DNA of 64,000 nt from Pseudomonadota bacterium (GCA_018241665.1 JAFEDK010000005.1:310001-374000); one strand, 5' to 3'; shown: positions 27,892 to 51,971, counted from the stretch's first letter. The notes: generated by a model from the sequence alone, not told the origin. Made by a program: numbers and translations.

Positions 27892-29076
27892 ATGACCCAG
27901 CGTGAAATCCTCGTCGTCGGTGCCGCCCGCACCGCCATCGGCACCTACGGCGGCAGCCTCAAGGACATCCCCCTCTGCCAGCTCGGCACCACCGCGGTCA
28001 GTGCCGCGCTGGCCCGTTCCGGCGTCGATCCACGCGAGGTCGGCCACGTGGTGATGGGCAACGTAGTGCCCACCGAGCCCCGCGATGCCTACCTGAGCCG
28101 CGTCGCCGCGATCGACGCCGGCATCCCGCAGGAGACCCCGGCCTTCAACGTCAACCGCCTGTGCGGCTCGGGCCTGCAGGCCATCGTGTCGGCGGCCCAG
28201 GCCATCCTGCTCGGCGACACCGACATCGCGATCGGCGGCGGCGCCGAATCCATGAGCCGCGGCCCCTACATCATCCCGACCCTGCGCTGGGGCGCCCGCA
28301 TGGGCGATGCGCCGGTCCTCGACTACATGAACGGCATCCTCCACGACCCGTGGGAGAAGGTGCACATGGGCATCACCGCCGAGAACGTCGCCGCCCGCTA
28401 CGGCATCAGCCGCGAGATGCAGGACGCGCTGGCGCTGGAAAGCCAGCAGCGCGCCGCCCGCGCCATCGCCGAAGGGCGCTTCCGCGAGCAGATCGCCGCG
28501 GTGGAGGTGAAAAGCCGTAAGGGCAGCGTCATCTTCGACACCGACGAGCACGTGCGCCCGGACGTGACCCTGGAAGCCCTGGCCAAAATGAAGGCGATTT
28601 TCCAGAAGAACGGCAGCGTCACGCCGGGCAATGCCTCCGGCCTCAACGACGGTGGCGCGGCGGTGGTGCTGGCCGAGGCCAAGCGTGCAGCGGCCCTCGG
28701 TCTCAAGCCGCTGGCCCGACTTGTCGGGTATGCTCACGCCGGCGTCGAACCGCTGTACATGGGCATCGGCCCCGTTCCCGCCACCCGCCTGGTGCTCCAG
28801 CGCACCGGGCTGTCCGTCGCAGATCTGGACGTCGTCGAGTCCAACGAGGCCTTCGCGGCCCAGGCCTGCGCCGTGACACGGGAACTGGACCTCGATCCGG
28901 CCCGCGTCAATCCCAACGGCTCGGGGATCTCCCTGGGGCATCCGGTGGGGGCGACCGGGGCCATCATCACCACCAAGGCCATCTACGAGCTCCACCGCAC
29001 GGGGGGCCGTTATGCCCTGGTGACCATGTGCATCGGTGGCGGACAGGGAATCGCCGCCATCTTCGAACGCGTTTAA
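27892..29076 (+). CDS. bktB: Acetyl-CoA acetyltransferase / 3-ketothiolase (BktB type)
   Basis: A 394-residue thiolase that cleaves 3-ketoacyl-CoA or condenses acetyl-CoA units. All catalytic residues are present: the acyl-accepting Cys in VNRLCGSGLQAIV, the His in SGISLGHPVGATG, the Cys in VTMCIGGGQG and the NEAFAAQ motif. It matches the broad-specificity BktB/PhaA group. ATG 27892 follows GGAAGAG. It heads a plus-strand beta-oxidation group with the hydroxyacyl-CoA dehydrogenase 38 bp downstream. Confidence 0.9.
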   Translation: MTQREILVVGAARTAIGTYGGSLKDIPLCQLGTTAVSAALARSGVDPREVGHVVMGNVVPTEPRDAYLSRVAAIDAGIPQETPAFNVNRLCGSGLQAIVSAAQAILLGDTDIAIGGGAESMSRGPYIIPTLRWGARMGDAPVLDYMNGILHDPWEKVHMGITAENVAARYGISREMQDALALESQQRAARAIAEGRFREQIAAVEVKSRKGSVIFDTDEHVRPDVTLEALAKMKAIFQKNGSVTPGNASGLNDGGAAVVLAEAKRAAALGLKPLARLVGYAHAGVEPLYMGIGPVPATRLVLQRTGLSVADLDVVESNEAFAAQACAVTRELDLDPARVNPNGSGISLGHPVGATGAIITTKAIYELHRTGGRYALVTMCIGGGQGIAAIFERV

Positions 29077-29114
29077 AAAAGTCTTTAAAAAACTACGCAA
29101 ACAGGAGCAACAGC

Positions 29115-29966
29115 ATGGCAATTCAAAACATCGGCGTGATCGGCGCCGGCACCATGGGCAACGGCATCGCGCAGGTCTGTGCGCTGGCCGGCATCAACGT
29201 GGTGATGGTGGACATCTCCACCGAAGCCGTCGAACGCGGCGTCAAGACCGTCGCCGGCAGCCTCGACCGCATGGTCAAGAAGGAAAAGATCAGCGCCGCC
29301 GACAAGGACGCCGCACTGGCCCGCATCCGCGGCACCACCGCCTACGCGGACCTCGCCGCCACCGAGCTGGTCATCGAGGCTGCCACCGAGAACGAAGGTC
29401 TCAAGCTGCGCATCCTCAAGGAAATCGACAGCATCGTGCCGGCCACCACGCTGATCGCCACCAACACCTCGTCGATCTCCATCACCAAGCTGGCCGCCAC
29501 CGTGTCCTCGCCGGAGCGCTTCATCGGCATGCACTTCTTCAACCCGGTGCCGATGATGGCCCTGGTCGAGCTGATCCGTGGCCTGCAGACCTCCGACGCG
29601 ACGCTGGCCGCTGCGCAAGGCTTCGCCACCGCCATCGGCAAGACCCCGATCACCGCCAAGAACAGCCCGGGCTTCGTGGTTAACCGCATCCTGTGCCCGA
29701 TGATCAACGAAGCGATCTTCGCGCTGCAGGAAGGCCTCGCCACCGCCGAGGACATCGACGCCGGCATGAAGCTCGGCTGCAACCAGCCGATCGGCCCGCT
29801 GGCCCTCGCCGACCTGATCGGCCTGGACACCATGCTGGCGGTGATGGAAGTCTTCTACGACGGCTTCAACGATCCGAAGTACCGCCCGGCCCCGCTGCTG
29901 AAGGAAATGGTGGACGCCGGCTACCTGGGCCGCAAGAGCGGCCAGGGCTTCTACAAGTACGACTGA
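29115..29966 (+). CDS. hbd: 3-hydroxybutyryl/3-hydroxyacyl-CoA dehydrogenase
   Basis: A 283-residue NAD-dependent dehydrogenase for the third step of beta-oxidation. The NAD loop is GVIGAGTMGNGIAQVCALAG; the catalytic His is in MHFFNPVPMMALVEL and its Glu partner in AATENEGLK; the C-terminal domain begins NSPGFVVNRILCPM. It ends GRKSGQGFYKYD, typical of single-domain Hbd. AGGAG lies upstream of ATG 29115. With the preceding thiolase it forms a short-chain acyl-CoA oxidation pair. A GGGCGCC/GGCGCCC hairpin (29977-29994) follows the stop. Confidence 0.94.
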   Translation: MAIQNIGVIGAGTMGNGIAQVCALAGINVVMVDISTEAVERGVKTVAGSLDRMVKKEKISAADKDAALARIRGTTAYADLAATELVIEAATENEGLKLRILKEIDSIVPATTLIATNTSSISITKLAATVSSPERFIGMHFFNPVPMMALVELIRGLQTSDATLAAAQGFATAIGKTPITAKNSPGFVVNRILCPMINEAIFALQEGLATAEDIDAGMKLGCNQPIGPLALADLIGLDTMLAVMEVFYDGFNDPKYRPAPLLKEMVDAGYLGRKSGQGFYKYD

Positions 29967-30084
29967 TCGTCCCCGGGGGCGCCTGCGGGCGCCCTCACCC
30001 TGCCGGCGCCGGTAGCCACATCTTCCGGCCCCGGCGGGCCGACTGCCGGCGGGCCACGGCCTGCCGGCACACCGGAGCCTGCCC

Positions 30085-30789
30085 ATGCCCGCCTTACCCG
30101 GCACCACCCACCGCCGCCGCATCTACCTGATGCGCCACGCGGAAGTCAGCTATTTCAGCGCCGACGGCACGCCCCTCGACCCGCGCACCGTCCCGCTCAC
30201 CCCCCGCGGCCGCGAACAGGCCACCGCCAGCGCCGACCTGCTGGTCGACATCCCCTTCGACCTGGCCGTCTGCTCGGGCCTGACCCGCACCGTCGAGACC
30301 GCCCGCATCGTGCTCGGCGAGCGCGCCCTGGCGCTGGCCGAAGAGGCGCGCCTGAAGGAAGTCCGCGCCGGCCGCCTGCGCGAGATTCCGCCGGACGAAC
30401 AGGAACAGGAGATCGGCTACGCCTACGAGACCGCCGGCCATCCCGACGGCGCCTTCATCTGTGGCGAACGCTGGCAGGACCTGGCAAGCCGCGTGCACGC
30501 CGCCTGGGACGACCTGATCGCCCGTGATGACTGGGCCAACGCCCTCGTCGTCGCCCACGACGGCGTCAACCGCGTGCTGCTGACCCACGTCACCGGCGCC
30601 GGCCTCGCCGCCATCCGCGCCATCGAGCAGGACCCGGCGTGCATCAACATCATCGAGCTCGACGTGGCCGACGGCCGTGTGCAACGCGCCTGGCTGCGCG
30701 CGGTGAACATCGCCCCCTACAACCCGCTGCGCGCCGACGACCCGCTGATGGTGATGGAGAAGATTTACCGCCGCTTCCGCGCTTCCTGA
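30085..30789 (+). CDS. Histidine phosphatase family protein
   Basis: A 234-residue cytoplasmic phosphatase or mutase homologue. The N-terminal IYLMRHAEVSY carries the RHxE variant of the RHG motif with the nucleophile His, and VVAHDGVNRVLLTH carries the second catalytic His. The remaining arginine pocket is in SGLTRTVETARIV. Substrate is unknown; position between beta-oxidation genes suggests a role in the same pathway, for example dephosphorylating an intermediate, but this is speculation. GGAG lies before ATG 30085. Confidence 0.85.
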   Translation: MPALPGTTHRRRIYLMRHAEVSYFSADGTPLDPRTVPLTPRGREQATASADLLVDIPFDLAVCSGLTRTVETARIVLGERALALAEEARLKEVRAGRLREIPPDEQEQEIGYAYETAGHPDGAFICGERWQDLASRVHAAWDDLIARDDWANALVVAHDGVNRVLLTHVTGAGLAAIRAIEQDPACINIIELDVADGRVQRAWLRAVNIAPYNPLRADDPLMVMEKIYRRFRAS

Positions 30790-30836
30790 CGGACGAGGCG
30801 CACGTCACGACGCACAGGTAAGATCACAGAAAAACA

Positions 30837-30854
30837 GCCCGACCTGTTTCGGGC
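30837..30854 (-). terminator. Hairpin with T-tract on the minus strand
   Basis: GCCCGA-loop-TCGGGC with TGTTTTT following when read on the minus strand. It has the form of an intrinsic terminator, but no minus-strand gene ends here; it may limit antisense transcription or be fortuitous. Confidence 0.3.
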
Positions 30855-30885
30855 CAACGACAACGATACGGAGCGAGACAACAAC

Positions 30886-31668
30886 ATGAGTACATCCCAA
30901 CGCCTGGCCGGCCGCGTGGCCATCATCACCGGCGCCGCGTCCGGCATCGGCCGCGCCACCGTCGAACTGTTCGCCGCCGAAGGCGCCGCGGTGGTGGCCG
31001 TGGACCGGCCCGAATCGGCCATCCTCAGCGTCTACGACGGCCAGCCGCACATCGCCCCGCTGGCGGTGGACGTCACCGCCGCCGACGCACCGCAGCGTAT
31101 GGTCGCGCTGGCGCTGGAGAAATTCGGTGGCCTCGACATCCTCTTCAACAACGCCGGCGTCGTGCCGGTCTCGCCGGTATCCGCGATGCCCGACGAGGAC
31201 TGGGCGCGGGCCTTCGAGGTGAACGTGCATGCCGTGATGCGCAGCTGCCGCCACGCCATCCCGGTGCTGATCGAACGCGCCAAGACCACCGGCCGTGGCC
31301 GCATCATCAACACCGGTTCCATCCTCGCCCACTTCACCGACCACAGCTGCGGCGCCTACTCAGCCTCCAAGCACGCCGTCGCCGGCCTGACCAAGACCAT
31401 CGCCAAGGAAGTCGGCCGCTTCGGCATCACCGCCAACTACCTGCTGCCCGGCGCGATCGAGACCAACATGACGGCCGGCCTCTTCGCCGTGCCGGAAGTC
31501 CGCGCCCAGTGGGAGCAAGCCGCCGCCGTCAAGCGCCTCGGCCGCCCCGAGGACATCGCCCGCGCCGCGCTGCTGCTGGCCAGCGACGAAGCCGACTTCA
31601 TCACCGGCCACGGCCTGGTGGTGGACGGCGGCGTCACCGTCACCGCCGGCCCGCAGCTGCCGATGTAA
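30886..31668 (+). CDS. SDR-family oxidoreductase
   Basis: A 260-residue classical short-chain dehydrogenase. The cofactor loop is IITGAASGIGRATVELF with AVDRPE at the end of strand 2, where the Asp favours NAD. NNAG is present, the catalytic Ser is in INTGSILAHF and the Tyr/Lys pair is in GAYSASKHA. The ending DGGVTV is usual for SDRs. It probably oxidises or reduces a hydroxyl/keto group of a pathway intermediate. It is preceded by 96 bp with a purine-rich GGAGCGAGA leader. Confidence 0.9.
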   Translation: MSTSQRLAGRVAIITGAASGIGRATVELFAAEGAAVVAVDRPESAILSVYDGQPHIAPLAVDVTAADAPQRMVALALEKFGGLDILFNNAGVVPVSPVSAMPDEDWARAFEVNVHAVMRSCRHAIPVLIERAKTTGRGRIINTGSILAHFTDHSCGAYSASKHAVAGLTKTIAKEVGRFGITANYLLPGAIETNMTAGLFAVPEVRAQWEQAAAVKRLGRPEDIARAALLLASDEADFITGHGLVVDGGVTVTAGPQLPM

Positions 31669-31702
31669 GCACCGGCAGGATCGACACAGCCGGGTTCCTC
31701 CT

Positions 31703-31769
31703 GTGGGGGCGAATTCATTCGCCCTCGGAAGTTGCTCAACCGACGGCGGGCGAATGAATTCGCCCCCAC
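31703..31769. repeat. 67-bp composite REP-like repeat (copy 5)
   Basis: Standard inverted pair between the SDR and isomerase genes on the same strand. It is followed by two copies of the 13-mer CAGTTTTACCCCA (31769-31781 and 31801-31813). Confidence 0.9.
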
Positions 31770-31813
31770 AGTTTTACCCCAAGGTTTTGCCCTAAGCCTG
31801 CAGTTTTACCCCA
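31769..31813. repeat. 13-bp direct repeat CAGTTTTACCCCA
   Basis: Two exact copies 32 bp apart, the first overlapping the final CA of the REP composite. Between them is a related TTTTGCCC. The arrangement may be a small duplication or a pair of binding sites in the leader of the isomerase gene. Confidence 0.7.
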
Positions 31814-31849
31814 CAAGGAAATGGCCCGGATCGCATATCCTGCCCAGCT

Positions 31850-31873
31850 TGGGAGCGAATGCATTCGCCCTAC
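31850..31873. repeat. Degenerate REP-like repeat in the isomerase leader
   Basis: GGGAGCGAATGCATTCGCCCTAC keeps the inner stem CGAATGCATTCG, here perfectly palindromic because GA is replaced by GC at the centre. It ends about 30 bp before the start codon. Confidence 0.7.
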
Positions 31874-31903
31874 ACCAAGACAACAAACCACGGAGACCAC
31901 AGC

Positions 31904-32683
31904 ATGAGCGACAGCCCGATCATCGAAAGCCGCGACGGCGGCATCCACCGCCTGCACTTCAACCGCCCGAAGGTCCTCAACGCCATCGACACCGCCACCG
32001 CCCAGGCCCTGCTGGCCGCCCTGCGCCGCTTGCAGGACGACCCGGCACTGCGGGTGCTGATCCTCAGCGGCGAAGGCCGCTCCTTCATGGCCGGCGGCGA
32101 CATCGCCCAGTTCCGCGACGACCCGGCGGCGGTGCCGAACACGCTGATCGCGCCGCTCAACGAGAGCATGCAGATCATCGCCAACCTGCGCGCGCCGGTG
32201 ATCGCCAGCATCCAGGGCCCGGTGGCCGGCGCCGGCATGAGCATGGCGCTGGCCTGCGACCTGGTCGTCGCCGCCGACACCACCCGCTTCAACTTCGCCT
32301 ACGTCAATCTGGGCACCTGCTGCGACCTCGGCGCCTCATGGAGCCTGCCGCGCACCGTCGGCCTGCACAAGGCGCTGGAGATCGCGCTGCTGTCCGACCT
32401 CATCGACGCCGCCGAAGCCCAGCGCCTGGGCCTGGTGAGCCGCGTCGTGGCGGCCGAGCAACTGGCGGCGGAAACCGACAAGCTGGCCCGCCGCCTGGCC
32501 GCCGGCGCGCCGATCGCCCAGGGCACCCTCAAGCAGCTGATGCGCCGCTCCATCGAACGAGACTTCGCCGGCCAGCTGGATGCCGAACGCCAGGGCTTCG
32601 CCACCTGCGCGGCCACGGAAGACTTCAAGGAAGCGGTCAACGCCTTCCTCGAAAAGCGCCCGGCCACCTACACCGGCCGCTGA
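31904..32683 (+). CDS. Enoyl-CoA isomerase-like crotonase (PaaG-like)
   Basis: A 259-residue crotonase-fold protein. The oxyanion hole segments are AGGDIAQF and GPVAGAGMSMALACD. The two Glu residues of true hydratases are absent: the first position is Ser113 and the second is Tyr133 (FAYVNLG instead of QPE). An Asp is kept at 141 in CCDLGASWSLPR, matching the catalytic Asp of PaaG-type isomerases. A delta3-delta2 or ring isomerase is therefore more likely than a hydratase. ATG 31904 gives the expected N-terminus; the leader holds a GGAG box and a degenerate REP. Confidence 0.85.
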   Translation: MSDSPIIESRDGGIHRLHFNRPKVLNAIDTATAQALLAALRRLQDDPALRVLILSGEGRSFMAGGDIAQFRDDPAAVPNTLIAPLNESMQIIANLRAPVIASIQGPVAGAGMSMALACDLVVAADTTRFNFAYVNLGTCCDLGASWSLPRTVGLHKALEIALLSDLIDAAEAQRLGLVSRVVAAEQLAAETDKLARRLAAGAPIAQGTLKQLMRRSIERDFAGQLDAERQGFATCAATEDFKEAVNAFLEKRPATYTGR

Positions 32684-32718: not shown

Positions 32719-33705
32719 CTACTCCTCGGCCATCCGCACGATCTCCTCGGTGGCCTTGGAGGTCTGCATCGCCAGCTTGCCGACTTCTTCCGCCACCACC
32801 GCGAAGCCGCGCCCGGCCTCACCGGCGCGGGCCGCCTCGATGCTGGCGTTGAGGGCCAGCAGGTTGGTGCGCTTGGAGATGTCGGCGATCACCGCCGACA
32901 CGTCGAGGATCTGCCGCATGCTGTGGGCCATGCGCTCACGCTGCTCCTTCTGCAGCGCCTCGGCGGCCTTTTCGGCGGAGATGTCGCGGAAGGAACCGAC
33001 GCAGCGCACCGGCCGCCCCTGCGCATCGCGCTCGGTACAGGCGCGGCCACGGAACCAGCCGTAGTCGCCGCCCTTCTTGCGGATGCGGTATTCGGCGACG
33101 AAGGGCGTCCGGCCCGTGTGATCGCACAGGTGGCGGTGCAGCGCCGCGCCGACCCAGGCCAGGTCTTCCGGGTGGATCACCGCGGTCCACGCGTCCATCT
33201 CGTCGGGGAAGTCCGCCGTGCCGGTGTAGTCCAGCAGACGCCGCATCTGGTCGGAGTAGCGCACCCGGTTGGCCGGATGGGCCGGGTCGCCGTCCACGAT
33301 GCGCACCGTCCACGTGCCCTCGGTCAGCGCGGTGCCGGCCAGGCGGGCATCGGCCAGTTCGTCCTCCAGCCCGGCCAGACGCTCCTCCAGCTCGATGCGG
33401 CTCGCTCCTTCACCGTCGGCGGCACCGCGGGCCACTTCCAGTTTCACCGCCAATTCATCACGCTCGGCGTCGAGCAGCGCCCCGCTACGCTCCAGCTCCG
33501 CAACACGGGCGGTCAGCGCGGCAATCTGCAACTCCAGCGCCCGTTCGCCGCTGCGGATCTTCTCCGCCAGCGTCTGCAACCGGCGCTGCGTGGCCTCCGG
33601 CAGCGCCGCATCGGCGCCCCCCAGCCAACTGCTCAGCCCATCCCGCAACGCCGCATCCAGCGCGTGGTCCAGCCTGTTCAAAGTCCTGCGTGCTGAAAGG
33701 AACAT
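32719..33705 (-). CDS. Soluble PAS-domain methyl-accepting chemotaxis-type protein
   Basis: A 328-residue protein without membrane segments. Residues 1 to about 125 are coiled coil rich in Ala, Glu and Arg. A PAS domain follows ([19 protein letters not shown] to [13 protein letters not shown]). The C-terminus is a shortened chemoreceptor signalling hairpin with [23 protein letters not shown] and [12 protein letters not shown]. There is no HAMP domain and the descending helix is short. It is probably a cytoplasmic redox or ligand sensor acting through CheA/CheW. ATG 33705 has GGAGGAG 9 bp upstream. It is convergent with the isomerase gene. Confidence 0.85.
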
Positions 33706-33970: not shown

Positions 33971-34681
33971 TCACCAGGTTTCGCCGAAGGGCCTGAGTTC
34001 GTGGAGGAAGGTCCATGCGCTGCGTGCCTGGTGGGCCAGGTGCCAGATCTCGTCGGCGATGGCGGCGGGTTGCATGAAGAAGCTGTCGGGGCGGTCGCCA
34101 AAAGCGCGCCGGGTCCATGGCACGTCGATCACCGCGTCGATCACCACATAGGCCACGTGCACGCCCTGCGGCCCCAGGTCGCGGGCCATCGCCTCGCACA
34201 GCATGCGCTGGGCGGCCTTGGTCGGCGCCAGGCCGGCAAACAGTGCGCGGCCGCGCAGCGCAGCGGTGTTGCCGGTGACGACGATGGCGCCGTGGCCGGC
34301 GGCGATCATGTCCGGCGCCAGCGCGCGGGCCAGGTGCAGCAAGGCCATCACGTTCACCTGGAAGCCCCGCTCCAGCACCGCCGGATCAATGTCCATGAAG
34401 TGTCCGCGGGCGCCGGACACGGCGTTGTGCACCAGCACCGACGGCGTACCCAGCTCGGCGCGGATACGCGCCAGCACCGCGTCCACCGCCGCCGTATCGG
34501 TGACGTCGCAGGGGTAGGCCTGCGCTTCCGGCAGTTCCGCCGCCAGCTCGGCGAGGCGCCCGGCGTCGCGGGCCAGCATCGCCACGCGGTAGCCGCCAGC
34601 CACGAAACGCCGCACCGTGGCGGCCCCGGTCCCCGGCCCGACGCCGGTCACGACGGCCACCGGCCGCATATCGCTATTCAT
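33971..34681 (-). CDS. SDR-fold protein lacking the catalytic Tyr
   Basis: A 236-residue Rossmann protein of the SDR superfamily with VVTGVGPGTGAATVRRF for cofactor binding and HNAVSG in place of NNAG. The usual YxxxK is LAPTK (Leu151, Lys155), so the catalytic tyrosine is missing, and the Ser position reads VVTGNTAALRG. It may be a non-catalytic or altered SDR; homologues with this motif are annotated simply as SDR oxidoreductases. It lies 16 bp downstream of the EamA transporter gene on the same strand, probably cotranscribed. Confidence 0.8.
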   Translation of the reverse strand: MNSDMRPVAVVTGVGPGTGAATVRRFVAGGYRVAMLARDAGRLAELAAELPEAQAYPCDVTDTAAVDAVLARIRAELGTPSVLVHNAVSGARGHFMDIDPAVLERGFQVNVMALLHLARALAPDMIAAGHGAIVVTGNTAALRGRALFAGLAPTKAAQRMLCEAMARDLGPQGVHVAYVVIDAVIDVPWTRRAFGDRPDSFFMQPAAIADEIWHLAHQARSAWTFLHELRPFGETW

Positions 34682-34697: not shown

Positions 34698-35579
34698 CTA
34701 GGTTGCAGACGGCGTGCCGCCGCGCTGGTGCAGCAGCAGCCCCAGGCTGATCGCCGCGGCGCCGGCCCAGGCCTGGGCCGGCAGCGCCTCGCCGTTGAAC
34801 AGGCGGCCGAGGAACAGCGCGAACAGCGGCGTCACCACCAGGGTCAGCGCCAGCGCGGCGGCTTCCAGATGCTTCATCAGATAGTAGTAAAGGGCGAAGC
34901 CCAGCACCGAGCCGAACACGCCCAGGTAGCCGATGGCCAGCACGCTGCGCAGCGGCAGCTCGGCCGGCCACGCGGCGCCATCCATCAGCCAGGCCAGGCC
35001 GAACAGCGGCAGGGACACCAGCATCACGCCGGCAGTCAGCGCCATCGGCGGCGTCGCCGCGCCGAAGCGCTTGACGCCCACCAGGCCGGCGGCATTGAGC
35101 AGCACCGCCAGCAGGATCGCCGCCAGCCCGGCCGGCGCATGGGCCCCGCCGAGGTCGGTGCCGTGGCCGAAAACCACCGCCAGGCCTGCCGCAGCCAGCG
35201 CCATGCCGGCCACGCGGCGCGGCGTCAGCGCCTGCTCGCCGAGCCACACGGCAGCCAGCACGCTGGTAACCAGCGGCGACAAGCCGAACAGCACCGAGAT
35301 CAGCCCGGAATGGACGAACTGGGCGCCCCAATAGACGCACAGCATCGTGCCGAACAAGCTGGTGCCGCCGATCAGGTAGGCCGGCCACACGCCACGGCGC
35401 AGCGGAAAACCCGCCCCGGTCGCCGCCAGCACGCCCAGCGCACAGGCCAGCCCCACCACCATGCGGGCGAACAGCGCGAACGCGAAGCCGCCACCGGGCA
35501 GGCTCCAGTTGATCGCCAGCGGCGTGGTGGACCACAGGATGACGACCGAGATGTAGGCAAGGGGGACGGACATGGGCAT
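34698..35579 (-). CDS. EamA-family (DMT) transporter
   Basis: A 293-residue inner-membrane protein with ten hydrophobic segments formed by two EamA repeats; the second starts near GLAAILLAVLLNAAGLVGVKRF. Conserved elements are WSTTPLAINWSL near the start and FGSVLGFALYYYLMKHLEAA. The superfamily exports amino acids and other metabolites. Substrate is unknown. It is the first gene of a two-gene operon with the Tyr-less SDR; two nearby ATGs (35579 and 35573) could start it. Confidence 0.88.
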   Translation of the reverse strand: MPMSVPLAYISVVILWSTTPLAINWSLPGGGFAFALFARMVVGLACALGVLAATGAGFPLRRGVWPAYLIGGTSLFGTMLCVYWGAQFVHSGLISVLFGLSPLVTSVLAAVWLGEQALTPRRVAGMALAAAGLAVVFGHGTDLGGAHAPAGLAAILLAVLLNAAGLVGVKRFGAATPPMALTAGVMLVSLPLFGLAWLMDGAAWPAELPLRSVLAIGYLGVFGSVLGFALYYYLMKHLEAAALALTLVVTPLFALFLGRLFNGEALPAQAWAGAAAISLGLLLHQRGGTPSAT

Positions 35580-38549: not shown

Positions 38550-38561
38550 CGTCTGTCCTCC

Positions 38562-44945: not shown

Positions 44946-44965
44946 AACAATCAATCCTGTTTGTT
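44946..44965. promoter_or_regulatory. Candidate operator before the DUF35 operon
   Basis: AACAATCAATCCTGTTTGTT has half-sites AACAATC and GTTTGTT in inverted orientation, 25 bp before the start of the DUF35 gene. The 14-mer CAATCCTGTTTGTT recurs with one change (CAATCCCGTTTGTT) before the E1-alpha gene. Placement suggests repression by a local TetR protein; this is inferred, not shown. Confidence 0.4.
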
Positions 44966-45172: not shown

Positions 45173-46003
45173 TCAGTCCGCCACAACCTTCTTCGCCGTC
45201 CGCCGCGCCTTGGGCGCCGGTGCGGCGGCAGGCTCGGGTTCCGCAGCCGGCGTCGGCGGGATCTTGGTGCCGTGCACCGCCTCGTAGGCTTTCTCGAACT
45301 CCATCATCGCCACCGAGGCGAGCAGCTTGTGCAGGCGGTGCAGACGATCGCCCTGCATGTAGGGGGTCGGATTGACGGCGACGCCCTTCAAGGAATGGAA
45401 GAACAAGTCGCGCAGCACTTCGCCGGTCTGCGGGTAGTCGGCCCAGAACGGGAAACGCTTCAGCATGCTGGCGTTCTTCTTGTCGTCGAGCGCCTTCTCG
45501 AGGGGCTGCATGACCCGGGCGAGGTCCTTGTCGGTACGGGCGCCGCGCTGGAGTTCCTGCAGGGCGATGAAGGACGGCCGCGCGTAGTAGTACTTCTGCA
45601 GCATCTCGAGGGTATCGAGCATGCTCTCGTAGGTCGCCAGGTCACCTTCCGGCAGGCGGATGCGCCGGCAGGCGTCCTCGTATTCGGCGGCGCGCAGGTC
45701 GGTGATGTACTCGGCGGCGGCCTCGAAGACGTCGGCGCGGGACTTGAAGTGGTGGGTCATCGCGCCCCGGGACACGCCGGCCTTCTGGGCGATCTTCTCG
45801 GTGGTGGTCTGGGTGTAGCCGAGCTCGACGAGGCACTGCAACGTGGCCTCGAGGATCTGGTTGCGGGTGGCCTGGCTCTTCTCGGCCTGCCAGGTGCCGC
45901 CGCTGGCCTTGGAGCGGGCGGCGTCGCGCTTGGGGCGGACGATCTTGCGTACCGGCGGAGCCTCGGGGCTCAGCAAAGATTCCGGTTTGTTTTCTTCAGT
46001 CAT
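45173..46003 (-). CDS. TetR-family transcriptional regulator
   Basis: A 276-residue regulator. The HTH lies at QILEATLQCLVELGYTQTTTEKIAQKAGVSRGAMTHHFKSRADVF, shown here by its parts GYTQTTTEKIAQKAGVS and GAMTHHFKSR. An N-terminal 35-residue basic tail (PPVRKIVRPKRDAARSKA) precedes it, and a Pro/Ala-rich C-terminal tail ends ARRTAKKVV. The ligand-binding part is helical. It lies in the middle of the catabolic gene set and is the obvious candidate regulator, with an acyl-CoA or pathway compound as likely effector. Target sites are proposed at 44946, 50118 and 52105. Confidence 0.9.
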   Translation of the reverse strand: MTEENKPESLLSPEAPPVRKIVRPKRDAARSKASGGTWQAEKSQATRNQILEATLQCLVELGYTQTTTEKIAQKAGVSRGAMTHHFKSRADVFEAAAEYITDLRAAEYEDACRRIRLPEGDLATYESMLDTLEMLQKYYYARPSFIALQELQRGARTDKDLARVMQPLEKALDDKKNASMLKRFPFWADYPQTGEVLRDLFFHSLKGVAVNPTPYMQGDRLHRLHKLLASVAMMEFEKAYEAVHGTKIPPTPAAEPEPAAAPAPKARRTAKKVVAD

Positions 46004-46172: not shown

Positions 46173-46970
46173 CTACGACAAGCGAACCGAGTGTCCATAG
46201 TCGACGGTCAAGACGCTGCCGTTCATGTACGACGAGGCCTCGCTGGCCAGCAGCAGCAGCGGACCATCTAGTTCCTCCAGGCGCCCGAGGCGCTTGGCGG
46301 GCAGCAGGGCGATCTCCTTCTTGCCGGCCTCCGACTCGTAGAACGGGTTGGTCATCTCGCTCGGGAAGTAGCCCGGCGCGATCGCATTGACTCGGATGCC
46401 GTGGGGCAGCAGGTCCAGCGCCATGTAGCGCGTCATGTGGATCAGCGCGCCCTTGGTCGTACCGTAGTTGATGAAGTTGGGATACGCCAGGTGGCCGAGG
46501 ATGGAGGCGATGTTGATGATCGAGCCGCCCTGCTCCGCGGCGATCAGGCGCTGCGCCACGGCCTGGGTCACGAAGAACGGGCCCGACAGGTTCACGTCGA
46601 GCACCGAGTTCCACTGCGCTTCGCTCATCTGGTGGAACACCGTCGGATCGGTGGCGCCGGCGTTGTTGACCAGGATGTGCGCCGGGTTGCCGAAGCGCTG
46701 CTCGATGGCGTCCAGCGCGGCGCCGATGGTGGCCTGGTCGCCGACGTCCATGCGGCAGGCCATGGCCTGGCCGCCGGCGTCGCGGATCGCCGCGGCCACC
46801 GCCTCGACGCGCTCGACGCGGCGCGCCACGCAGGCCACCTTGGCGCCGGCCGCCGCCAGCACGTGGGCCATCCGTTCGCCCAGGCCGGAACCGGCGCCGG
46901 TCACCAGGGCGACCCGACCTTCCAGGGAAAAGCGTTGCAGGAGGGTTCCTGCCTCAATGTGGGTCGTCAT
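46173..46970 (-). CDS. SDR-family oxidoreductase (3-ketoacyl reductase-like)
   Basis: A 265-residue classical SDR. The cofactor loop is ALVTGAGSGLGERMAHVLA, the NADP-preferring CVARRVERVEA follows strand 2, NNAGATDP is present, and the catalytic residues are Ser in INIASILGHL and Tyr/Lys in INYGTTKGAL. The C-terminal lid is GYFPSEMTNPFYESE. It is the distal gene of the E1-E2 operon and may oxidise a secondary alcohol before decarboxylation. The gap to tetR (46004-46172) holds a CCCCGGC-TGCT-GCCGGGG hairpin without T-tract. Confidence 0.9.
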   Translation of the reverse strand: MTTHIEAGTLLQRFSLEGRVALVTGAGSGLGERMAHVLAAAGAKVACVARRVERVEAVAAAIRDAGGQAMACRMDVGDQATIGAALDAIEQRFGNPAHILVNNAGATDPTVFHQMSEAQWNSVLDVNLSGPFFVTQAVAQRLIAAEQGGSIINIASILGHLAYPNFINYGTTKGALIHMTRYMALDLLPHGIRVNAIAPGYFPSEMTNPFYESEAGKKEIALLPAKRLGRLEELDGPLLLLASEASSYMNGSVLTVDYGHSVRLS

Positions 46971-46991: not shown

Positions 46992-47759
46992 TCAGGCCAG
47001 CGCCGCCGGATCGGCCAGCGCGTCGGCGATGCAGCGGGTGAAGCGGGCCGCGTCGGCACCGTTGATCACCCGGTGGTCATAGCTGAGGGACAGGGGCAGC
47101 ACCGGCACGCCGACCACCTCGCCATCCACCCGCTTGAGGCGCTCGGCCGTGCGGGTGACGCCGAGGATGGCGACTTCCGGCGCGTTGATGATCGGCGTGA
47201 AGCCGGTGCCGCCGAGGTTGCCGAGGGAGCTGATGGTGAAGCAGCCGCCGGACATCTCGGTGATCGGCAGGCCCTTGCCGCGGGCCCGCTCGGCCTTCTC
47301 GGCCAGCTCGGCGGCGATCTCCGGGATGCTCTTCCTGTCGCAGTCGCGGATGACCGGCACAACGAGGCCGTTGGGCGTTTCCACGGCGATGCCGATGTGG
47401 AAGTAGCGCTTCATCACCAGGCCGTCGCCGTTCGGCGTCAGCGAGGCATTGAAGCGCGGGAAGGCCTGCAGCGCCTTCACCGCCGCCTTGACCAGGAAGG
47501 CCACCTGGGTGACCTTCACGCCGGACTCGGCGCTGATCGCCTTGCGTGCCGCATCCAGCCCGGGCACTTCGGCCTCGTCCTGGTGGAACACGTGGGGGAT
47601 CTGCGCCCAGTTGCGGGCCAGGAAGGACGCCACCAGCTTCTGGTGGCGCGGCAGCGGCACGGTTTCGACCTCGCCGAACAGGCCGAAGTCCATCACCGGC
47701 ATCGGCGGCAGGCTGGCCGGCCAGGCCGGCGCGGCGGGAGCCTCGGGCTTGGCGCTCAT
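46992..47759 (-). CDS. 2-oxoacid dehydrogenase E2, catalytic core only
   Basis: A 255-residue dihydrolipoamide acyltransferase consisting only of the CAT-like core, with the active-site His in LSYDHRVINGADAARF (Asn replaces the usual Asp of DHRxxDG) and MSGGCFTISSLGNLGGTGFTPI. No lipoyl domain and no peripheral subunit-binding domain precede it; only a 25-residue Ala/Pro-rich lead. The lipoyl domain is encoded separately just upstream. How E1 and E3 dock is therefore unclear. No E3 gene is in the window. Start ATG 47759 overlaps the lipoyl gene's stop. Confidence 0.9.
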   Translation of the reverse strand: MSAKPEAPAAPAWPASLPPMPVMDFGLFGEVETVPLPRHQKLVASFLARNWAQIPHVFHQDEAEVPGLDAARKAISAESGVKVTQVAFLVKAAVKALQAFPRFNASLTPNGDGLVMKRYFHIGIAVETPNGLVVPVIRDCDRKSIPEIAAELAEKAERARGKGLPITEMSGGCFTISSLGNLGGTGFTPIINAPEVAILGVTRTAERLKRVDGEVVGVPVLPLSLSYDHRVINGADAARFTRCIADALADPAALA

Positions 47760-47989
47760 CACACCAGCTCGCCGATGACGGTGCCGACCTCGTAGGTCTC
47801 GCCGGCTTCCTTGATGATCTTCAGGGTGCCGTCGGCCGGGGCCTCGACTTCCTGCACGGACTTCTCGCTCTCCATCGTGTACAGCAGCTGGCCTTTCTCG
47901 ACGGCGCCGCCGTTCGGCACCATCCATTCGGTCAGGATGGCCTCATTGACGGAAAAACCGAGCTTGGGGAGGATGATTTCGGTTGCCAT
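47759..47989 (-). CDS. Stand-alone lipoyl-carrier protein
   Basis: A 76-residue single lipoyl domain: ATEIILPKLGFSVNEAIL, the lipoylated Lys in MESEKSVQEVEAPADGTL and a closing YEVGTVIGELV. In ordinary 2-oxoacid dehydrogenases this domain is the N-terminus of E2; here it is a separate gene. The start lies 78 bp downstream of the E1 beta stop, past a degenerate REP copy. It should shuttle acyl groups from E1 to the catalytic E2 encoded next. Confidence 0.92.
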   Translation of the reverse strand: MATEIILPKLGFSVNEAILTEWMVPNGGAVEKGQLLYTMESEKSVQEVEAPADGTLKIIKEAGETYEVGTVIGELV

Positions 47990-48062: not shown

Positions 48063-48067
48063 GGGGC

Positions 48068-49060
48068 TTAGTTGAGGGTTTCGCGGATGGCCGCCAGGAT
48101 GCGTTCGCGGGTCGGCACGAAGGCGGCTTCGAGGGGCTTGGAGAAAGGCACCGGCGAGCGCGCCGCGCCAACCCGCGCCACGGGGGCCTTGAGCTGGCCG
48201 AAGAGTTCCTTGTGCAGGCGCGCGGAGATCTCGGCGCCGACGCCGAAGTCCACCTGGGCTTCGTGGGCCACCACCACGCGGCCGGTCTTGCGGGCCGAGG
48301 CGAGGATGGTGTCCATGTCCAGCGGGGAGATGGTGCGCAGGTCGATGACCTCGGCGGCGATACCTTCCTTGGCCAGTTCCTTGGCCACGCCGATCACGTC
48401 GTGGAGGGTCTTGCTGTAGCTGATCAGCGTGATGTCGCTGCCTTCCTGCACGATCCTGGCCTTGCCGATCGGCACCCGCACGCCGGGCTCCGGCGCTTCG
48501 CCGGGGACGAAGTACAGCGGCAGGTTCTCGATGAAGATGCACGGGTCGTCGTCGAAGATGCACGACAGCATCAGGCCGTAGGCGTCCGCCGGGGTCGCCG
48601 GGGCGACGACCTTCAGGCCGGCGGTGTGGGCGAACCAGGCTTCCAGGTAGTCGGCGTGCTGGCCGCCGGTGCCAAAGCCGGCGCCGGTGGTGGTGCGGAT
48701 CACCAGCGGCACGTGGGTCTGGCCGCCAGTCATGAAGCGCAACTTGGCAGCGTGGTTGACGATCTGGTCCATCGCCACCGTGGTGAAGTTCATCAGCATG
48801 ATCTCGGCCACCGGGCGCAGGCCGGCCAGCGCGCCGCCGACCGCCGCGCCAACGATGGCCTGCTCGGCGATCGGCGTGGATTTGACGCGGCCGGTGCCGA
48901 ACTTGGTGGACAGGCCGGCGGTGCACTTGAACACGCCGCCGCCTTCCCGGTCGGCGATGTCCTCGCCGAGGACCACCACCGATTCGTCGAGGGCCATGGC
49001 GTCATGGAGGGCCAGGTTGATGGCCTGGGCGGAATTCATCTTCTTGGCTGCGGTGCTCAT
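48068..49060 (-). CDS. 2-oxoacid dehydrogenase E1 component, beta subunit
   Basis: A 330-residue transketolase-like subunit. Conserved segments are VVLGEDIADREGGGVFKCTAGL, STPIAEQAIVGAAVGGALAG, FGTGGQHADYLEAWFAHTAGLKVVAPATP and the C-terminal VVAHEAQVDFGVGAEI. With the alpha subunit it decarboxylates a 2-oxoacid (or a diketone/acetoin type substrate) using ThDP. It overlaps the alpha gene by 4 bp. Acetoin- or branched-chain-type specificity cannot be decided. Confidence 0.92.
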   Translation of the reverse strand: MSTAAKKMNSAQAINLALHDAMALDESVVVLGEDIADREGGGVFKCTAGLSTKFGTGRVKSTPIAEQAIVGAAVGGALAGLRPVAEIMLMNFTTVAMDQIVNHAAKLRFMTGGQTHVPLVIRTTTGAGFGTGGQHADYLEAWFAHTAGLKVVAPATPADAYGLMLSCIFDDDPCIFIENLPLYFVPGEAPEPGVRVPIGKARIVQEGSDITLISYSKTLHDVIGVAKELAKEGIAAEVIDLRTISPLDMDTILASARKTGRVVVAHEAQVDFGVGAEISARLHKELFGQLKAPVARVGAARSPVPFSKPLEAAFVPTRERILAAIRETLN

Positions 49061-50043
49061 GCTTGGGCTCCCTCGGCAACGACATCCTTGGCGAGTTCGG
49101 ACACATCGGGATAAGGGCTGGCGAGGGCGTACTCGACGGCCTCTTCGAAGGCGGCGGCGTTGGTGGCCTCGATGTCGGACAGCTGGCCGTCGCTGGCGTG
49201 GCCCTGGGCAATCAGCCAGGCGCGGAAGCGCGGCAGCGGATCGGCGGCGATGGCGGCGGCCATCTCGTCCTTGGCGATGTAGTGGCTGTCGTCGCCCATC
49301 AGGTGGCCGCGGAAGCGGAAGGTGTTGGCTTCCAGCAGCGTCGGGCCTTCGCCGGCGCGGGCGCGGGCCACCGCGGCACTGGCGGCCTGCCACATGGCGA
49401 CGGCGTCGTTGCCGTCCACCTCGACGCCGGGGATGCCGTAGCCGATGGCCCGGTCGGCGATGGTCGCCGCACCGGTGCCGTATTCGTACTTGGTGTGCTC
49501 GGCGTAGCCGTTGTTCTGGCACACGAAGAGCACCGGCAGTTTCCACACCGCGGCCAGGTTGAGGGCTTCGTGGAAGGCGCCGATGTTGGACGCGCCGTCG
49601 CCGAAGTTCACCACCGTGACCTGGTCGGTGCCCTTCAGTTGCGACGCCCAGGCCAGGCCGTTGGCGATCGGCAGGCCGGCACCGACGATGCCGGTGGTGA
49701 CCGGCAGGCCGGATGCGACGTGGGTCACGTGCATCGGCCCGCCCTTGCCCTTGCAGGTGCCGGTGGCGCGGCCGAGCAGCTCGGCAACGAAGGGCTTCAG
49801 CGGGATGCCCTTGGCGAGCTGGTCGTGGATGCCGCGATACGTGGTCACTACGTAGTCGCTGGCCTTGAGGTTCACCGAGATCGCCGCCGGGATCAGCTCC
49901 TGGCCCCGCGGCGAGTAGTACGGCGAGGCGATCTGGCCGGCCTTGATCAGCTCGATGAAGCGGTCGTCCGCACGCTTGATCAGCGTCGCGATGCGGTAGA
50001 TGTCCAGCAGGACCGCCTTGCTGGGTTGCTGCGTTTCACTCAT
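49057..50043 (-). CDS. 2-oxoacid dehydrogenase E1 component, alpha subunit
   Basis: A 328-residue ThDP-binding subunit of the acetoin/pyruvate dehydrogenase type. The ThDP motif is VVNFGDGASNIGAFHEALNLAAVWKLPVLFVCQNN, given by its ends GDGASNIG and CQNN; FRGHLMGDDSHY is the phosphorylation-loop equivalent and THVASGLPVTTGIVGAG the cofactor region. It heads the operon E1alpha-E1beta-lipoyl-E2-SDR. A candidate operator at 50118 lies 75 bp upstream of its start. Confidence 0.92.
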   Translation of the reverse strand: MSETQQPSKAVLLDIYRIATLIKRADDRFIELIKAGQIASPYYSPRGQELIPAAISVNLKASDYVVTTYRGIHDQLAKGIPLKPFVAELLGRATGTCKGKGGPMHVTHVASGLPVTTGIVGAGLPIANGLAWASQLKGTDQVTVVNFGDGASNIGAFHEALNLAAVWKLPVLFVCQNNGYAEHTKYEYGTGAATIADRAIGYGIPGVEVDGNDAVAMWQAASAAVARARAGEGPTLLEANTFRFRGHLMGDDSHYIAKDEMAAAIAADPLPRFRAWLIAQGHASDGQLSDIEATNAAAFEEAVEYALASPYPDVSELAKDVVAEGAQA

Positions 50044-50117
50044 GCCCTACCTCTCGATTGGGTTGGTAACAGGGGGCCGTGGAACCGGCGGCTCATCCGG
50101 CAAACGGAAAAGAAACC

Positions 50118-50133
50118 AACAATCCCGTTTGTT
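50118..50133. promoter_or_regulatory. Candidate operator before the E1-alpha operon
   Basis: AACAATCCCGTTTGTT shares 13 of 14 bases in CAATCCYGTTTGTT with the site before the DUF35 operon. The half-sites AACAATC and GTTTGTT are inverted with a 2-bp spacer. A T-rich run follows (GTTTTTTTGC). Confidence 0.4.
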
Positions 50134-50241
50134 TTTTTGCAGTATATCGGCAGTGATCGGGGGGCACAAGGGGATCAGGAAGAGGTTTTTCGGTGCGACC
50201 ATCGATCCCCGTCACGGGCGGATTTCCAGCGTTGCACGCAG

Positions 50242-50366: not shown

Positions 50367-50370
50367 CACC

Positions 50371-50500: not shown

Positions 50501-50522
50501 CCAGGCTCGCGCTCCGGCACCT

Positions 50523-50546
50523 GTAGGGGCGAATTCATTCGCCCGC
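50523..50546. repeat. REP-like repeat, right boundary of the tandem-repeat block
   Basis: A GTAGGGGCGAATTCATTC copy, 37 bp from the stop of the second Rieske gene. Confidence 0.85.
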
Positions 50547-50582
50547 CCCTGCCCATCCCCCCAACGCATACCCGGCGCCCGC

Positions 50583-51971
50583 TCACCCCTCCAGATACGT
50601 ATCCAGCGTCCGGTGGTGCGCGCGGATGCGCAGTTCCTGGTAGCTGGCCAGCGTCACCACGCCGGTCAGCGAGGACTTCAGGCCGCGGGTCATGTGCGGC
50701 AGGTTGCGCATGTCCTGGTCGAGCACCGGACCCAGCGCGCCCAGTTCCGGCGCCGCGCTGAAGGGCTCGTCGTCCTTCAGCCAGTGCACCGCGGGCGCTG
50801 CCGGCTTCGCCTCGCCGGCCTTGTGGCGGCCGAGGACCATTACGTCGTAGATGCAGCTCTCCGGGTTGTTGCCATCCGGCATGGCCCGGTAAACGATGTT
50901 GCCGAAGTAGCCGGCCCAGATCTGGAAATGCGGAAACACCGAATACAGGATCGCATCCTGCAACTCGGCCAGCGTGGCATGGGACAGGTCGCGGCCAGTG
51001 GCCTCGGCGTAGGCGGCGCGGTTCATCTCACCGACGTATTGGCGCGCCGTCATTCCATCCGGCAGGCGGTGGGCGTCGCCGTTGGCGTCCGCCATACGGC
51101 CCGACGCGGCGATGCAGTCGCGCATCACTTCAGCCTGGCTGACACCCTCCAGATTGGGGCTGGCGATGGACATCGGCGTGATGCAGCGGGCGATGTGGGG
51201 GCCGAACACGTCGTACTGGCTGTCCACGTCGTCGGTGAAGGTCATGATGTGCGGATGGGTGGCGCGCACATGGAAGGACTCGAAGAAGGCTTCCTGGGCC
51301 AGCTTCCAGTTGCACGGGATGCGCTTGCGCACGTGCAGCAGCGTGGTGGCGTGCTCCAGGTCGTAGTCGGCGCAGTGGGCCGGCACCACGCCCAGCCAGT
51401 CGGCGAGCGGCGCGGCATCCTGGTCGAAGTTGATGAAGATGAAGCCGGCCCAGCTCTCCACGCGCACCTGCGGCAGGTCCTGGCGCTCCTCCCCGAGATG
51501 CTTGAAGTCCCAGGCGCACGGCAGGCTCTTCATGCACCCGGCCAGATCCCAGGTGAAGCCATGGAAGGGGCAGCGCAGGCTCTTCACGTGGCCGCCCTCG
51601 GTGCGCAGCGCGATGCCCCGGTGCAGGCAGGAATTGGCGAAAGCGCGCACCTGGCCGTCCTTGCCGCGCATGACGATCAACGAGCGCTCGCCGATGTCGT
51701 GCACCACGTGGTCGCCCGGATTGGGGATCGCCTCGTCGCGGGCCACGAACTGCCACACCCGCGGCCACATCTTGTCCATCTCCTGGCGGTGGAAGTCCGG
51801 CGAGAAGTAGCGTTCGACGGCCAGGTCCGCGTCGCCGAAGTCGGGCGCCGGGGCCGGGCGCAGGAAATCGGGCACCGGTACCGTCTCCTCGGCAAGCAGA
51901 CGCTGGAAGGTAGCCGGATCGCCGAGGTTGTCGGGCGGCAGATAGGTATGCGGCAGTGCGGGTGCATTCAT
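50583..51971 (-). CDS. Rieske non-heme iron oxygenase alpha subunit (2)
   Basis: A 462-residue paralogue of the oxygenase at 41877-43274. Cluster ligands are Cys115/His117 (SCLHRG) and Cys134/His137 (CPFHG); the iron site is in NWKLAQEAFFESFHVRATH with His234 and His239, and the bridging residue is Glu231. Most of the length matches the first copy, including the C-terminal DQDMRN. It stands alone, separated from the other pathway genes by the repeat block, and its own reductase is missing, so it probably uses the one at 35914-36876. Its upstream region holds an AACAAAC palindrome and an Fnr-like site. Confidence 0.92.
   Translation of the reverse strand: MNAPALPHTYLPPDNLGDPATFQRLLAEETVPVPDFLRPAPAPDFGDADLAVERYFSPDFHRQEMDKMWPRVWQFVARDEAIPNPGDHVVHDIGERSLIVMRGKDGQVRAFANSCLHRGIALRTEGGHVKSLRCPFHGFTWDLAGCMKSLPCAWDFKHLGEERQDLPQVRVESWAGFIFINFDQDAAPLADWLGVVPAHCADYDLEHATTLLHVRKRIPCNWKLAQEAFFESFHVRATHPHIMTFTDDVDSQYDVFGPHIARCITPMSIASPNLEGVSQAEVMRDCIAASGRMADANGDAHRLPDGMTARQYVGEMNRAAYAEATGRDLSHATLAELQDAILYSVFPHFQIWAGYFGNIVYRAMPDGNNPESCIYDVMVLGRHKAGEAKPAAPAVHWLKDDEPFSAAPELGALGPVLDQDMRNLPHMTRGLKSSLTGVVTLASYQELRIRAHHRTLDTYLEG

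Follow-up and report, generated by a model that had tools for sequence, protein, structure and literature searches.

Several described catabolic systems share gene classes with the region studied here, positions 27892-51971 of a 64,000-nucleotide stretch (the window; contig C51:310001-374000 of a 5.4-Mb genome of a Pseudomonadota bacterium, G000), which encodes two Rieske oxygenases, an E1-lipoyl-E2 complex, a pair of acyl-CoA dehydrogenases (ACADs), and a thiolase-like protein with a DUF35 partner. As in the window, the steroid side-chain modules (ChsH2/Ltp2; CtShy-CtSal) have a ligase, an ACAD of two subunits and, next to DUF35, a protein of thiolase fold. Unlike them, the window set has QDT[DE] and GEP motifs instead of YDHF or YDCY, a stand-alone DUF35 protein that lacks a MaoC hydratase domain, additional genes for E1-lipoyl-E2 and a Rieske oxygenase, and no match above cut-off to the KstD and IpdE2 models that were tried. 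The GbcA/CntA oxygenases are likewise one-gene enzymes that have a Glu ahead of the His-His iron site, and their GbcB-type reductase is an FNR-Fer2 protein as well. The window Rieske protein, however, scores far below the GbcA cut-off and stands beside CoA-ester enzymes. The acetoin dehydrogenase family cleaves alpha-hydroxyketones. Its acoXABC operons also join E1 alpha and E1 beta with a lipoyl protein, and E1s of this family fill the same slot in related clusters of Halieaceae and Sphingomonadaceae; in the window, in contrast, the lipoyl domain is a separate protein, the E2 core resembles that of pyruvate dehydrogenase (PDH), and the E1s are only 40/45% identical to those of the acetoin-type operon of the same genome. 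Finally, LvaABC and ACAD10/ACAD11 combine kinase, small-protein and ACAD genes as three genes near the region do, the nearest solved relative of the kinase being ACAD11. Here, however, the similarity of the kinase is weak (46 bits), the trio is embedded in a larger set, and the likeness is one of gene make-up and solved relatives.

We consider it probable that the region belongs to a single catabolic island of patchy distribution, whose genes are inherited and regulated together and whose substrate is a bulky carboxylic acid or ketone of alicyclic (terpenoid- or steroid-like) type. A terpenoid or alicyclic substrate, which an earlier note on this DNA had given as an example, would fit the gene content. 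A simple codon-usage caller predicted 60 genes in the window, 23 of them within the region. These 23 were profiled with Pfam, and an NCBIfam scan took in all except Rieske oxygenase 1 (Rieske-1). Every gene class that the note had named is present by these scans (Rieske-1 by Pfam), including oxidoreductases of the short-chain (SDR) and medium-chain (MDR) dehydrogenase/reductase families. Scans of the window for tRNAs and Rfam families gave no matches. The genes of the region are as follows.

50583-51971, minus strand: Rieske oxygenase 1, 61% identical to Rieske oxygenase 2
49057-50043, minus strand: E1 alpha (PF00676)
48068-49060, minus strand: E1 beta (transketolase pyrimidine and C-terminal domains)
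47759-47989, minus strand: stand-alone lipoyl protein (PF00364)
46992-47759, minus strand: E2 acyltransferase core without lipoyl domain (PF00198 only)
46173-46970, minus strand: SDRc oxidoreductase, part of the E1-E2 operon (PF00106; 14/16 close loci)
45173-45976, minus strand: TetR regulator, candidate repressor (PF00440; 14/16 close loci)
44490-44921, minus strand: DUF35/ChsH2-like partner (PF01796, PF12172)
43319-44470, minus strand: SCP2-thiolase-fold protein with C79, QDT[DE] and GEP (alignment, motif survey)
41877-43274, minus strand: Rieske oxygenase 2 (Rieske and Ring_hydroxyl_A domains)
40849-41880, minus strand: MDR reductase, CurA-like (NF058644, 304 bits, under the cut-off of 440; 8/16 close loci)
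39647-40795, minus strand: ACAD large partner (best solved relatives 4x28_A and Tcur3483, 6wy9/6wy8)
38562-39623, minus strand: ACAD small partner (best solved relatives Tcur3481, 6wy8, and 4x28_D)
36903-38549, minus strand: acyl-CoA ligase (AMP-binding)
35914-36876, minus strand: FAD/NAD-[2Fe-2S] Rieske reductase (Fer2 and NAD-binding domains; 14/16 close loci)
34698-35579, minus strand: EamA-family transporter (PF00892)
33971-34681, minus strand: SDRb oxidoreductase (PF00106)
31904-32683, plus strand: crotonase, enoyl-CoA hydratase/isomerase (PF00378; 11/16 close loci)
30916-31668, plus strand: SDRa oxidoreductase (PF13561)
30085-30789, plus strand: histidine phosphatase family protein (PF00300; retained in L050 and L051)
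29115-29966, plus strand: 3-hydroxyacyl-CoA dehydrogenase (NF004474, 477 bits, cut-off 408)
27892-29076, plus strand: BktB-type 3-ketoacyl-CoA thiolase (NF006552, 704.8 bits, cut-off 565)

Every called gene from 51971 down to 33971 lies on the minus strand. The run comprises the groups Rieske-1, E1a-E1b-lipoyl-E2-SDRc, TetR, DUF35-thiolase-like-Rieske-2-CurA-ACAD-ACAD-ligase-reductase, and EamA-SDRb, with gaps of at most 78 bp inside the groups. The rightward block at 27892-32683 holds BktB, hydroxyacyl-CoA dehydrogenase, the phosphatase-family gene, SDRa and crotonase. Between the two blocks, 32719-33579 encodes a short PAS and partial MCP-signalling protein, apparently a truncated chemotaxis transducer; similar fragments occur at the equivalent position in L041 and L046.

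The gene set is conserved and inherited as one unit, as its distribution and order show. The closest named relatives belong to Zoogloea, Rieske-2 being 97% identical to its counterpart in Zoogloea sp. LCSB751, and 23 genomes of the genus, some incomplete (72-100%), were compared. Rieske-2 (at least 84% identity), E1a (at least 91%), the thiolase-like protein (at least 94%), the kinase g53 (at least 78%) and the ligase (at least 86%) occur in the same six of the 23, and only more distant paralogues of these five are listed for the rest of the genus. BktB is found in those six genomes (at least 88%) and in a seventh at 80%, the SDR g139, encoded 53 kb past the window, in the same six, and the FAD enzyme g103, also outside the window, in five of the six. 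The chance of one exact 6-of-23 pattern is 1/C(23,6), about 1e-5, if the genomes are taken as independent. Among 369 class-level genomes sampled, the thiolase-like protein was found at E <= 1e-90 in its own genome alone, with at most five candidates scored per genome, so that misses are possible.

For a survey of loci, genome contigs were scanned with both Rieske groups, and 78 of 334 confirmed loci were kept: the 16 nearest (L041-L056, at least 64% identity) are referred to as close loci, and 61 at 41-57% identity as distant loci. Gene counts use 10-kb flanks, and some close loci are cut by contig ends. The large ACAD is present in all 16 close loci and the thiolase-like gene in 15, while E1a, E1b, lipoyl, E2, SDRc, TetR, DUF35, small ACAD, ligase and reductase are each present in 14, not always the same 14. 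The misses for E1-E2, SDRc and TetR are L047, a 3-kb contig, and L043, in which E1a lies about 14 kb off and thus beyond the flank. Besides Zoogloea, the close loci include Thauera linaloolentis, Halopseudomonas, six Pseudomonas, Pseudoduganella, a Vitreoscilla metagenome-assembled genome (MAG) and a short gammaproteobacterial MAG contig, mostly with the same gene order. The search for co-occurrence in other genomes that the note had suggested hence turned out in its favour, both in the six Zoogloea genomes and in the order kept in Thauera, Pseudomonas, Halopseudomonas, Pseudoduganella and the Vitreoscilla MAG. In Halopseudomonas and in part of the Pseudomonas loci, the EamA gene adjoins the operon.

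Among the 61 distant loci, 16 have the thiolase-like gene (above 50% identity), 13 have E1b and 11 have both. E1b is thus present in 11 of the 16 with the thiolase-like gene vs 2 of the 45 without (Fisher p 6.7e-7, rows not independent). A row of small OB-fold gene, thiolase, ACAD, E1a, E1b and E2 is found on plasmids of Novosphingobium aromaticivorans, Novosphingobium sp. ES2-1, Sphingobium (where the small gene is annotated as hypothetical) and Croceicoccus, and on a plasmid of Mycobacterium branderi the thiolase-like gene precedes ACADs. Among the 40 rows listed from 571 plasmid records with a match, 19 are 51-60% identical to the thiolase-like protein, and the next row is at 36%.

Co-regulation is suggested by a conserved palindrome, AACAAnCA-N4-TGnTTGTT, which surfaced on aligning the DNA 5' of DUF35 from three genomes. 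With up to two mismatches it has seven matches at five places in the window (shuffle mean 0.01; none of 100 shuffles reaches seven):

44946-44965, no strand: operator palindrome before the DUF35 operon, 0 mismatches, 24 bp upstream
50114-50137, no strand: operator-like palindrome(s) before E1 alpha, 2 mismatches, 70 bp upstream
52105-52128, no strand: operator-like palindrome(s) before Rieske-1, 1-2 mismatches, 133 bp upstream
27805-27824, no strand: operator-like palindrome before BktB, 2 mismatches, site start 88 bp upstream
27406-27425, no strand: operator-like palindrome before the transhydrogenase genes, 2 mismatches, 230 bp upstream

The Rieske-1 site also precedes the divergent gene g80, and a site with three mismatches overlaps the start of the TetR gene itself (45972). 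Beyond the window, sites precede the GMC enzyme g100 and the Rieske gene g108; weaker ones (three mismatches) precede the Rieske gene g93, the DUF1302 protein g125 and the SDR g140, and those at 414560 and 436059 have no clear target. Of 12 forward matches in the whole genome, ten (seven places) fall inside C51:337-397 kb. In a 177.6-kb stretch, all 16 matches with up to three mismatches are centred in intergenic DNA, 15 of them wholly, at an intergenic share of 11%; the reversed pattern has none there at up to two mismatches and two at three. Counted in intergenic DNA only and at up to two mismatches, ten sites are observed vs a mean of 0.49 for permuted half-sites (largest 10). A site before DUF35 or E1a is present in 13 of the 16 close loci at up to three mismatches and in 8 at up to two; it is missing from L047 (the 3-kb contig), L049 and L053. 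P. jinjuensis (L052) has a like site before BktB, and distant loci 58-118 have 22 matches in 1.13 Mb. The stretches L130-L132, L119 and L120 of the own genome (90 kb together) have no match at up to two mismatches, and L130-L132, which carry related enzymes, were set aside. One of them, L130 (G000:C45:1-20000), holds a further set, with an ACAD pair as well as KstD-like, ligase and SDR genes. We infer that the TetR protein (45173-45976) is a candidate binder of the palindrome.

Several observations weigh against a single co-regulated unit. The 6-of-23 pattern carries no correction for relatedness, and the rows of the Fisher test are non-independent. Rieske-1 is present in five of the six Zoogloea carriers, being missing from G016, and its orthologues were seen only in Zoogloea, with none in close loci outside the genus as far as the sequence reaches. 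The close locus L055 is without the DUF35/thiolase pair. For the palindrome, the reversed pattern has 10 matches genome-wide vs 12 forward, so that only the clustering speaks; among up to 200 permuted half-site patterns (mean 0.69 matches), two reach the observed ten; for intergenic DNA at up to three mismatches, 15 are observed vs a permuted mean of 3.0 and a largest value of 16; and at three mismatches intragenic matches occur too in other genomes. A second TetR-like protein, g102 (by eye), lies nearby. On two Rhodococcus plasmids, the neighbours of the pair are ACAD and phosphotransferase genes, and the gene tables, which are incomplete, list neither E1 nor Rieske genes. Therefore, the link of the thiolase-like step to the Rieske and E1-E2 steps may not be obligatory. 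This partial set, together with the richness of the region in catabolic genes, could also be read as unrelated operons that are merely neighbours in a hot spot. Such a reading is very improbable given the shared operator-like site, the same distribution in 23 genomes and the order conserved over several genera. The note had proposed a joint pathway that would fall if its genes were not conserved together, and on the sequence side distribution, order and operator-like site favour unity.

The thiolase-like protein is one of the two enzymes of the island that stand out chemically. In an alignment with 6hsj (SCP2-thiolase), C79 pairs with the Cys of NNNCSTG, while HDCF is changed to QDTD and GHP to GEP. 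The Cys at the C79 position in its CSTG-like loop is presumably the thiolase nucleophile. We surveyed the motifs in 32 sequences, the window protein and those of 31 loci with at least 40% identity. QDT[DE] and GEP[VI]GASG are invariant in all 32, and the Cys is present in all 31 sequences covering it. The HDCF and GHP motifs of SCP2-thiolase, with the catalytic His and Cys, are absent from all 32. According to PMC12329534, the aldolase motifs are YDCY in Sal and YDHF in Ltp2, the Sal variant Y302F is inactive, and Sal carries Gly at the thiolase nucleophile position. Compared with these published motifs, the Tyr base is replaced by Gln in 32/32. Because these motifs are replaced, both the classic thiolase and the known aldolase mechanism fail to carry over, and the labels "thiolase" and "Ltp2/Sal" were rejected for the replaced motifs and the missing Tyr. 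As Sal has Gly at the nucleophile position and Cys is retained here, an acyl-enzyme is favoured; that Glu might replace His as the helper of C79 is a guess. The DUF35 gene lies directly upstream, and a DUF35-related gene is present in 14/16 close and 16/61 distant loci. Its solved relatives are DUF35, PhlB, a benzoylsuccinyl-CoA thiolase subunit, ChsH2(DUF35) and 9myr_B. With the thiolase motifs replaced, it is not secured that this pair belongs to ordinary beta-oxidation.

The ACADs are encoded by two adjacent genes, each nearest to one subunit of a solved enzyme: the large one to 4x28_A/Tcur3483 and the small one to Tcur3481/4x28_D. They are pimC- and pimD-like. We take 4x28 and Tcur3481/Tcur3483 to be two-subunit ACADs of steroid side-chain degradation, and therefore a bulky acyl-CoA is the likely substrate of the pair. 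This similarity, the relation of DUF35 to ChsH2, and downstream FAD enzymes matching KstD models with further Rieske, DUF1302/DUF1329 and MMPL proteins would suit a variant of the proteobacterial pathways that degrade steroids, sterols or bile acids; DUF35/thiolase would then serve as side-chain aldolase, and the steroid rings would be the targets of the distal FAD enzymes and Rieske proteins. We regard this as unlikely, since the thiolase-like protein lacks the catalytic Tyr that is essential in Sal (Y302F abolishes activity; PMC12329534). Moreover, the KstD model NF009478 has no match over its cut-off genome-wide (best 565/789, elsewhere), and the KstD label was rejected for the FAD enzymes of the island (195 and 151 bits vs 789). 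The IpdE2 model, which we take to be actinobacterial and hence a weak test, has 21 matches in the own genome and none over cut-off.

Rieske-1 (465 aa) and Rieske-2 (462 aa) share the Rieske Cys/His ligands and the E..H....H iron site; the two paralogous oxygenases of the note are thus borne out. In Rieske-2, E230/H233/H238 and the Rieske ligands are invariant over eight aligned rows. It is of the one-gene GbcA/CntA type, with carnitine monooxygenase as its best solved relative and a GbcA model score of 128.6 bits vs a cut-off of 670 (NCBIfam). One FNR-Fer2 reductase is encoded among the 23 genes. Relatives of Rieske-2 in L104 and L105 lie in assemblies titled Tolypothrix and Candidatus Kuenenia, possibly as contamination. 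The gene classes of the ibuprofen (Ipf) pathway, namely ligase, Rieske, thiolase-like and DUF35 genes, stand side by side here as well, a likeness at the level of gene classes. An aryl-acid route of this kind, with CoA ligation, Rieske dioxygenation of the aryl-CoA and deacylation by the thiolase/DUF35 pair, is improbable: Rieske-2 is a one-gene oxygenase with no beta subunit encoded in its operon, the Pfam scan shows no ring-cleavage dioxygenase domain among the 23 genes, and the route leaves the ACAD pair and E1-E2 unexplained.

The second distinctive enzyme is the E1-lipoyl-E2 complex. The note had described it as dispersed, but its genes are consecutive from 50043 down to 46992, with gaps of -4, 78 and -1 bp; no E3 is encoded among the 23 genes (Pfam). 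E1b scores 331 bits with NF006667, above the subfamily cut-off of 321; the top matches of E1a are human PDH chains and the models for PDH E1 alpha (TIGR03182, 291 bits), and the E2 core is PDH-like as well. An ordinary 2-oxoacid dehydrogenase is hence quite possible, though we would put it somewhat below an even chance; a 2-oxoacid from ring or side-chain oxidation would be turned into an acyl-CoA for beta-oxidation. Against it, E1a misses the PDH E1 alpha cut-off (291/394) and E1b the equivalog NF008854 (311/454), the same slot is held by acetoin-type E1s in Halieaceae, Sphingomonadaceae and Acidocella loci, and no gene is seen that obviously makes a 2-oxoacid. Since E1b lies above one PDH cut-off and E1a below its own, the sequences by themselves accommodate both a 2-oxoacid and an acyloin. 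Membership in PDH was rejected as a label for E1a falling under its curated cut-off, though E1b passes one subfamily cut-off.

We take L119 (G000:C44:162001-178000), from its acoX-A-B-C-like context and not from a model, to be the genome's own acetoin dehydrogenase operon; a lipoyl synthase gene adjoins it. The window E1s are 40% (E1a) and 45% (E1b) identical to those of L119, whereas E1s from Luminiphilus/Halieaceae, Novosphingobium/Sphingomonas and Acidocella reach 52-58% (E1a) and 56-67% (E1b). The E1s of distant loci are not close orthologues of the window E1s. A third E1 lineage stands beside a Rieske-2 homologue in L067, L073 and L075 (marine gammaproteobacteria), of which L075 lacks the thiolase-like gene. 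A 28-row tree of E1b is unrooted and carries long-branch warnings. In it, the 13 rows of the window group and the 3 rows of the third lineage each form one side of a 100/100 branch, the own AcoB-like row lies outside the window group, and the acetoin-type rows form no clean group. The label of an acetoin dehydrogenase was rejected for the separation of the window E1b from the AcoB-like row. Because three E1 lineages accompany the module, the thiamine/lipoyl step seems integral to it. We favour the cleavage of an oxygenated ring ketone over that of a true 2-oxoacid. Of the 2-oxoacid decarboxylation and beta-oxidation of a bulky substrate put forward in the note, the bulky substrate is probable, while the true 2-oxoacid is not secured.

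Classical beta-oxidation genes complete the set. The BktB-type thiolase falls short of its equivalog cut-off (688.9/725; NCBIfam). For the crotonase, the best model is oxepin_alt, below cut-off (193 vs 300). The "PaaG-like isomerase" of the note therefore holds at the level of the crotonase family, and the PaaG label was rejected because models remain below their cut-offs. Crotonase, hydroxyacyl-CoA dehydrogenase and BktB adjoin the operon in L048, L049, L052, L053 and L054. The unit exceeds 27892-51971, for the kinase and ACAD genes at 21582-24205 match its distribution or position:

23135-24205, minus strand: APH-type kinase g53, LvaA-like (PF01636; nearest solved chain ACAD11, 46 bits)
22768-23142, minus strand: DUF6285 small protein g52, in LvaB-like position (PF19802, 73 bits)
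21582-22754, minus strand: ACAD g51, LvaC/ACAD11-like (ACAD11 second among solved ACADs, 205 bits)
24412-27175, minus strand: NAD(P) transhydrogenase genes, possible regulon members (PNTB and AlaDh_PNT in two scanned of three)

The adjacent genes g53-g52-g51 form a trio of APH kinase, DUF6285 protein and ACAD as in LvaABC, with g52 in the small-protein position that we presume LvaB to hold. ACAD11 ranks first for the kinase, through its N-terminal kinase part (weak), and second for the ACAD. According to PMC11342911, the LvaABC/ACAD11 route brings 4-hydroxyacyl-CoA into beta-oxidation. In other genomes, g51 lies inside the cluster in L050, L051, L055 and L056 and at the locus edge in L048, L049, L053 and L054. 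It stands with kinase g53 by the operon in L050, L051 and L056, where the adjoining small gene matches g52 in L050 only; in L055 the ACAD lies beside a gene resembling the kinase (by eye). The transhydrogenase genes adjoin the trio in G000, G018 and G013; they might supply the oxygenases with reducing power, their membership in the regulon being uncertain. On the other side, genes up to about 60 kb past the window end carry operator-like sites or match the distribution of the cluster. This stretch, C51:374-436 kb (L022-L025), holds about 60 kb more catabolic genes, namely for Rieske proteins, a Rieske-type ferredoxin, SnoaL-like proteins, FAD enzymes matching KstD models, old yellow enzyme (OYE) and GMC enzymes, DUF1302/DUF1329 and MMPL proteins.

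For the island as a whole, we propose the following pathway. The CoA ligase would activate a side-chain or ring-derived acid, which the two-subunit ACAD, assigned by family, would dehydrogenate and the crotonase hydrate. The DUF35/thiolase-like pair, with its changed active site, may then cut a C-C bond by Cys-based acyl transfer as a non-classic thiolase. The Rieske oxygenase(s), their dedicated reductase and the SDRs would oxidise the ring ketone at a position adjacent to its carbonyl group. E1-lipoyl-E2, again placed by family, could cleave an alpha-hydroxyketone, a diketone or a 2-oxoacid to an acyl-CoA, with an E3 that is presumably encoded in another part of the genome. The last stage would be beta-oxidation by crotonase, hydroxyacyl-CoA dehydrogenase and BktB, alongside the LvaABC-like 4-hydroxyacyl-CoA route. 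TetR would repress the operons via AACAAnCA-N4-TGnTTGTT until a pathway intermediate binds. A bolder version, which we put forward tentatively and do not expect to hold in full, is a thioclastic ring opening: Rieske and SDR enzymes would form an alpha-hydroxyketone or 1,2-diketone, the acetoin-dehydrogenase-like E1-E2 would cut the ring bond to give an acyl-CoA, and the side chain would be removed by the thiolase-fold protein with DUF35, acting as a C-C lyase of a new catalytic class (Cys, QDT[DE], Glu for His).

The note knew no named pathway with this set, and we likewise recognised no description of it in the literature searched, which left out most subscription papers. In our judgement the pathway is a variant, so far undescribed, on catabolic gene clusters that are already known, and two of its enzymes merit direct study. 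These pose two chemical puzzles: a thiolase-fold/DUF35 enzyme with its catalytic motifs replaced in all 32 sequences, and an acyl-CoA-forming thiamine/lipoyl step filled by three E1 lineages. For a pathway undescribed in the literature searched, with relatives in several bacterial classes, a coherent regulon is hereby defined by gene list and operator. As the operator marks its members, the substrate could be looked for with a simple TetR-reporter screen.

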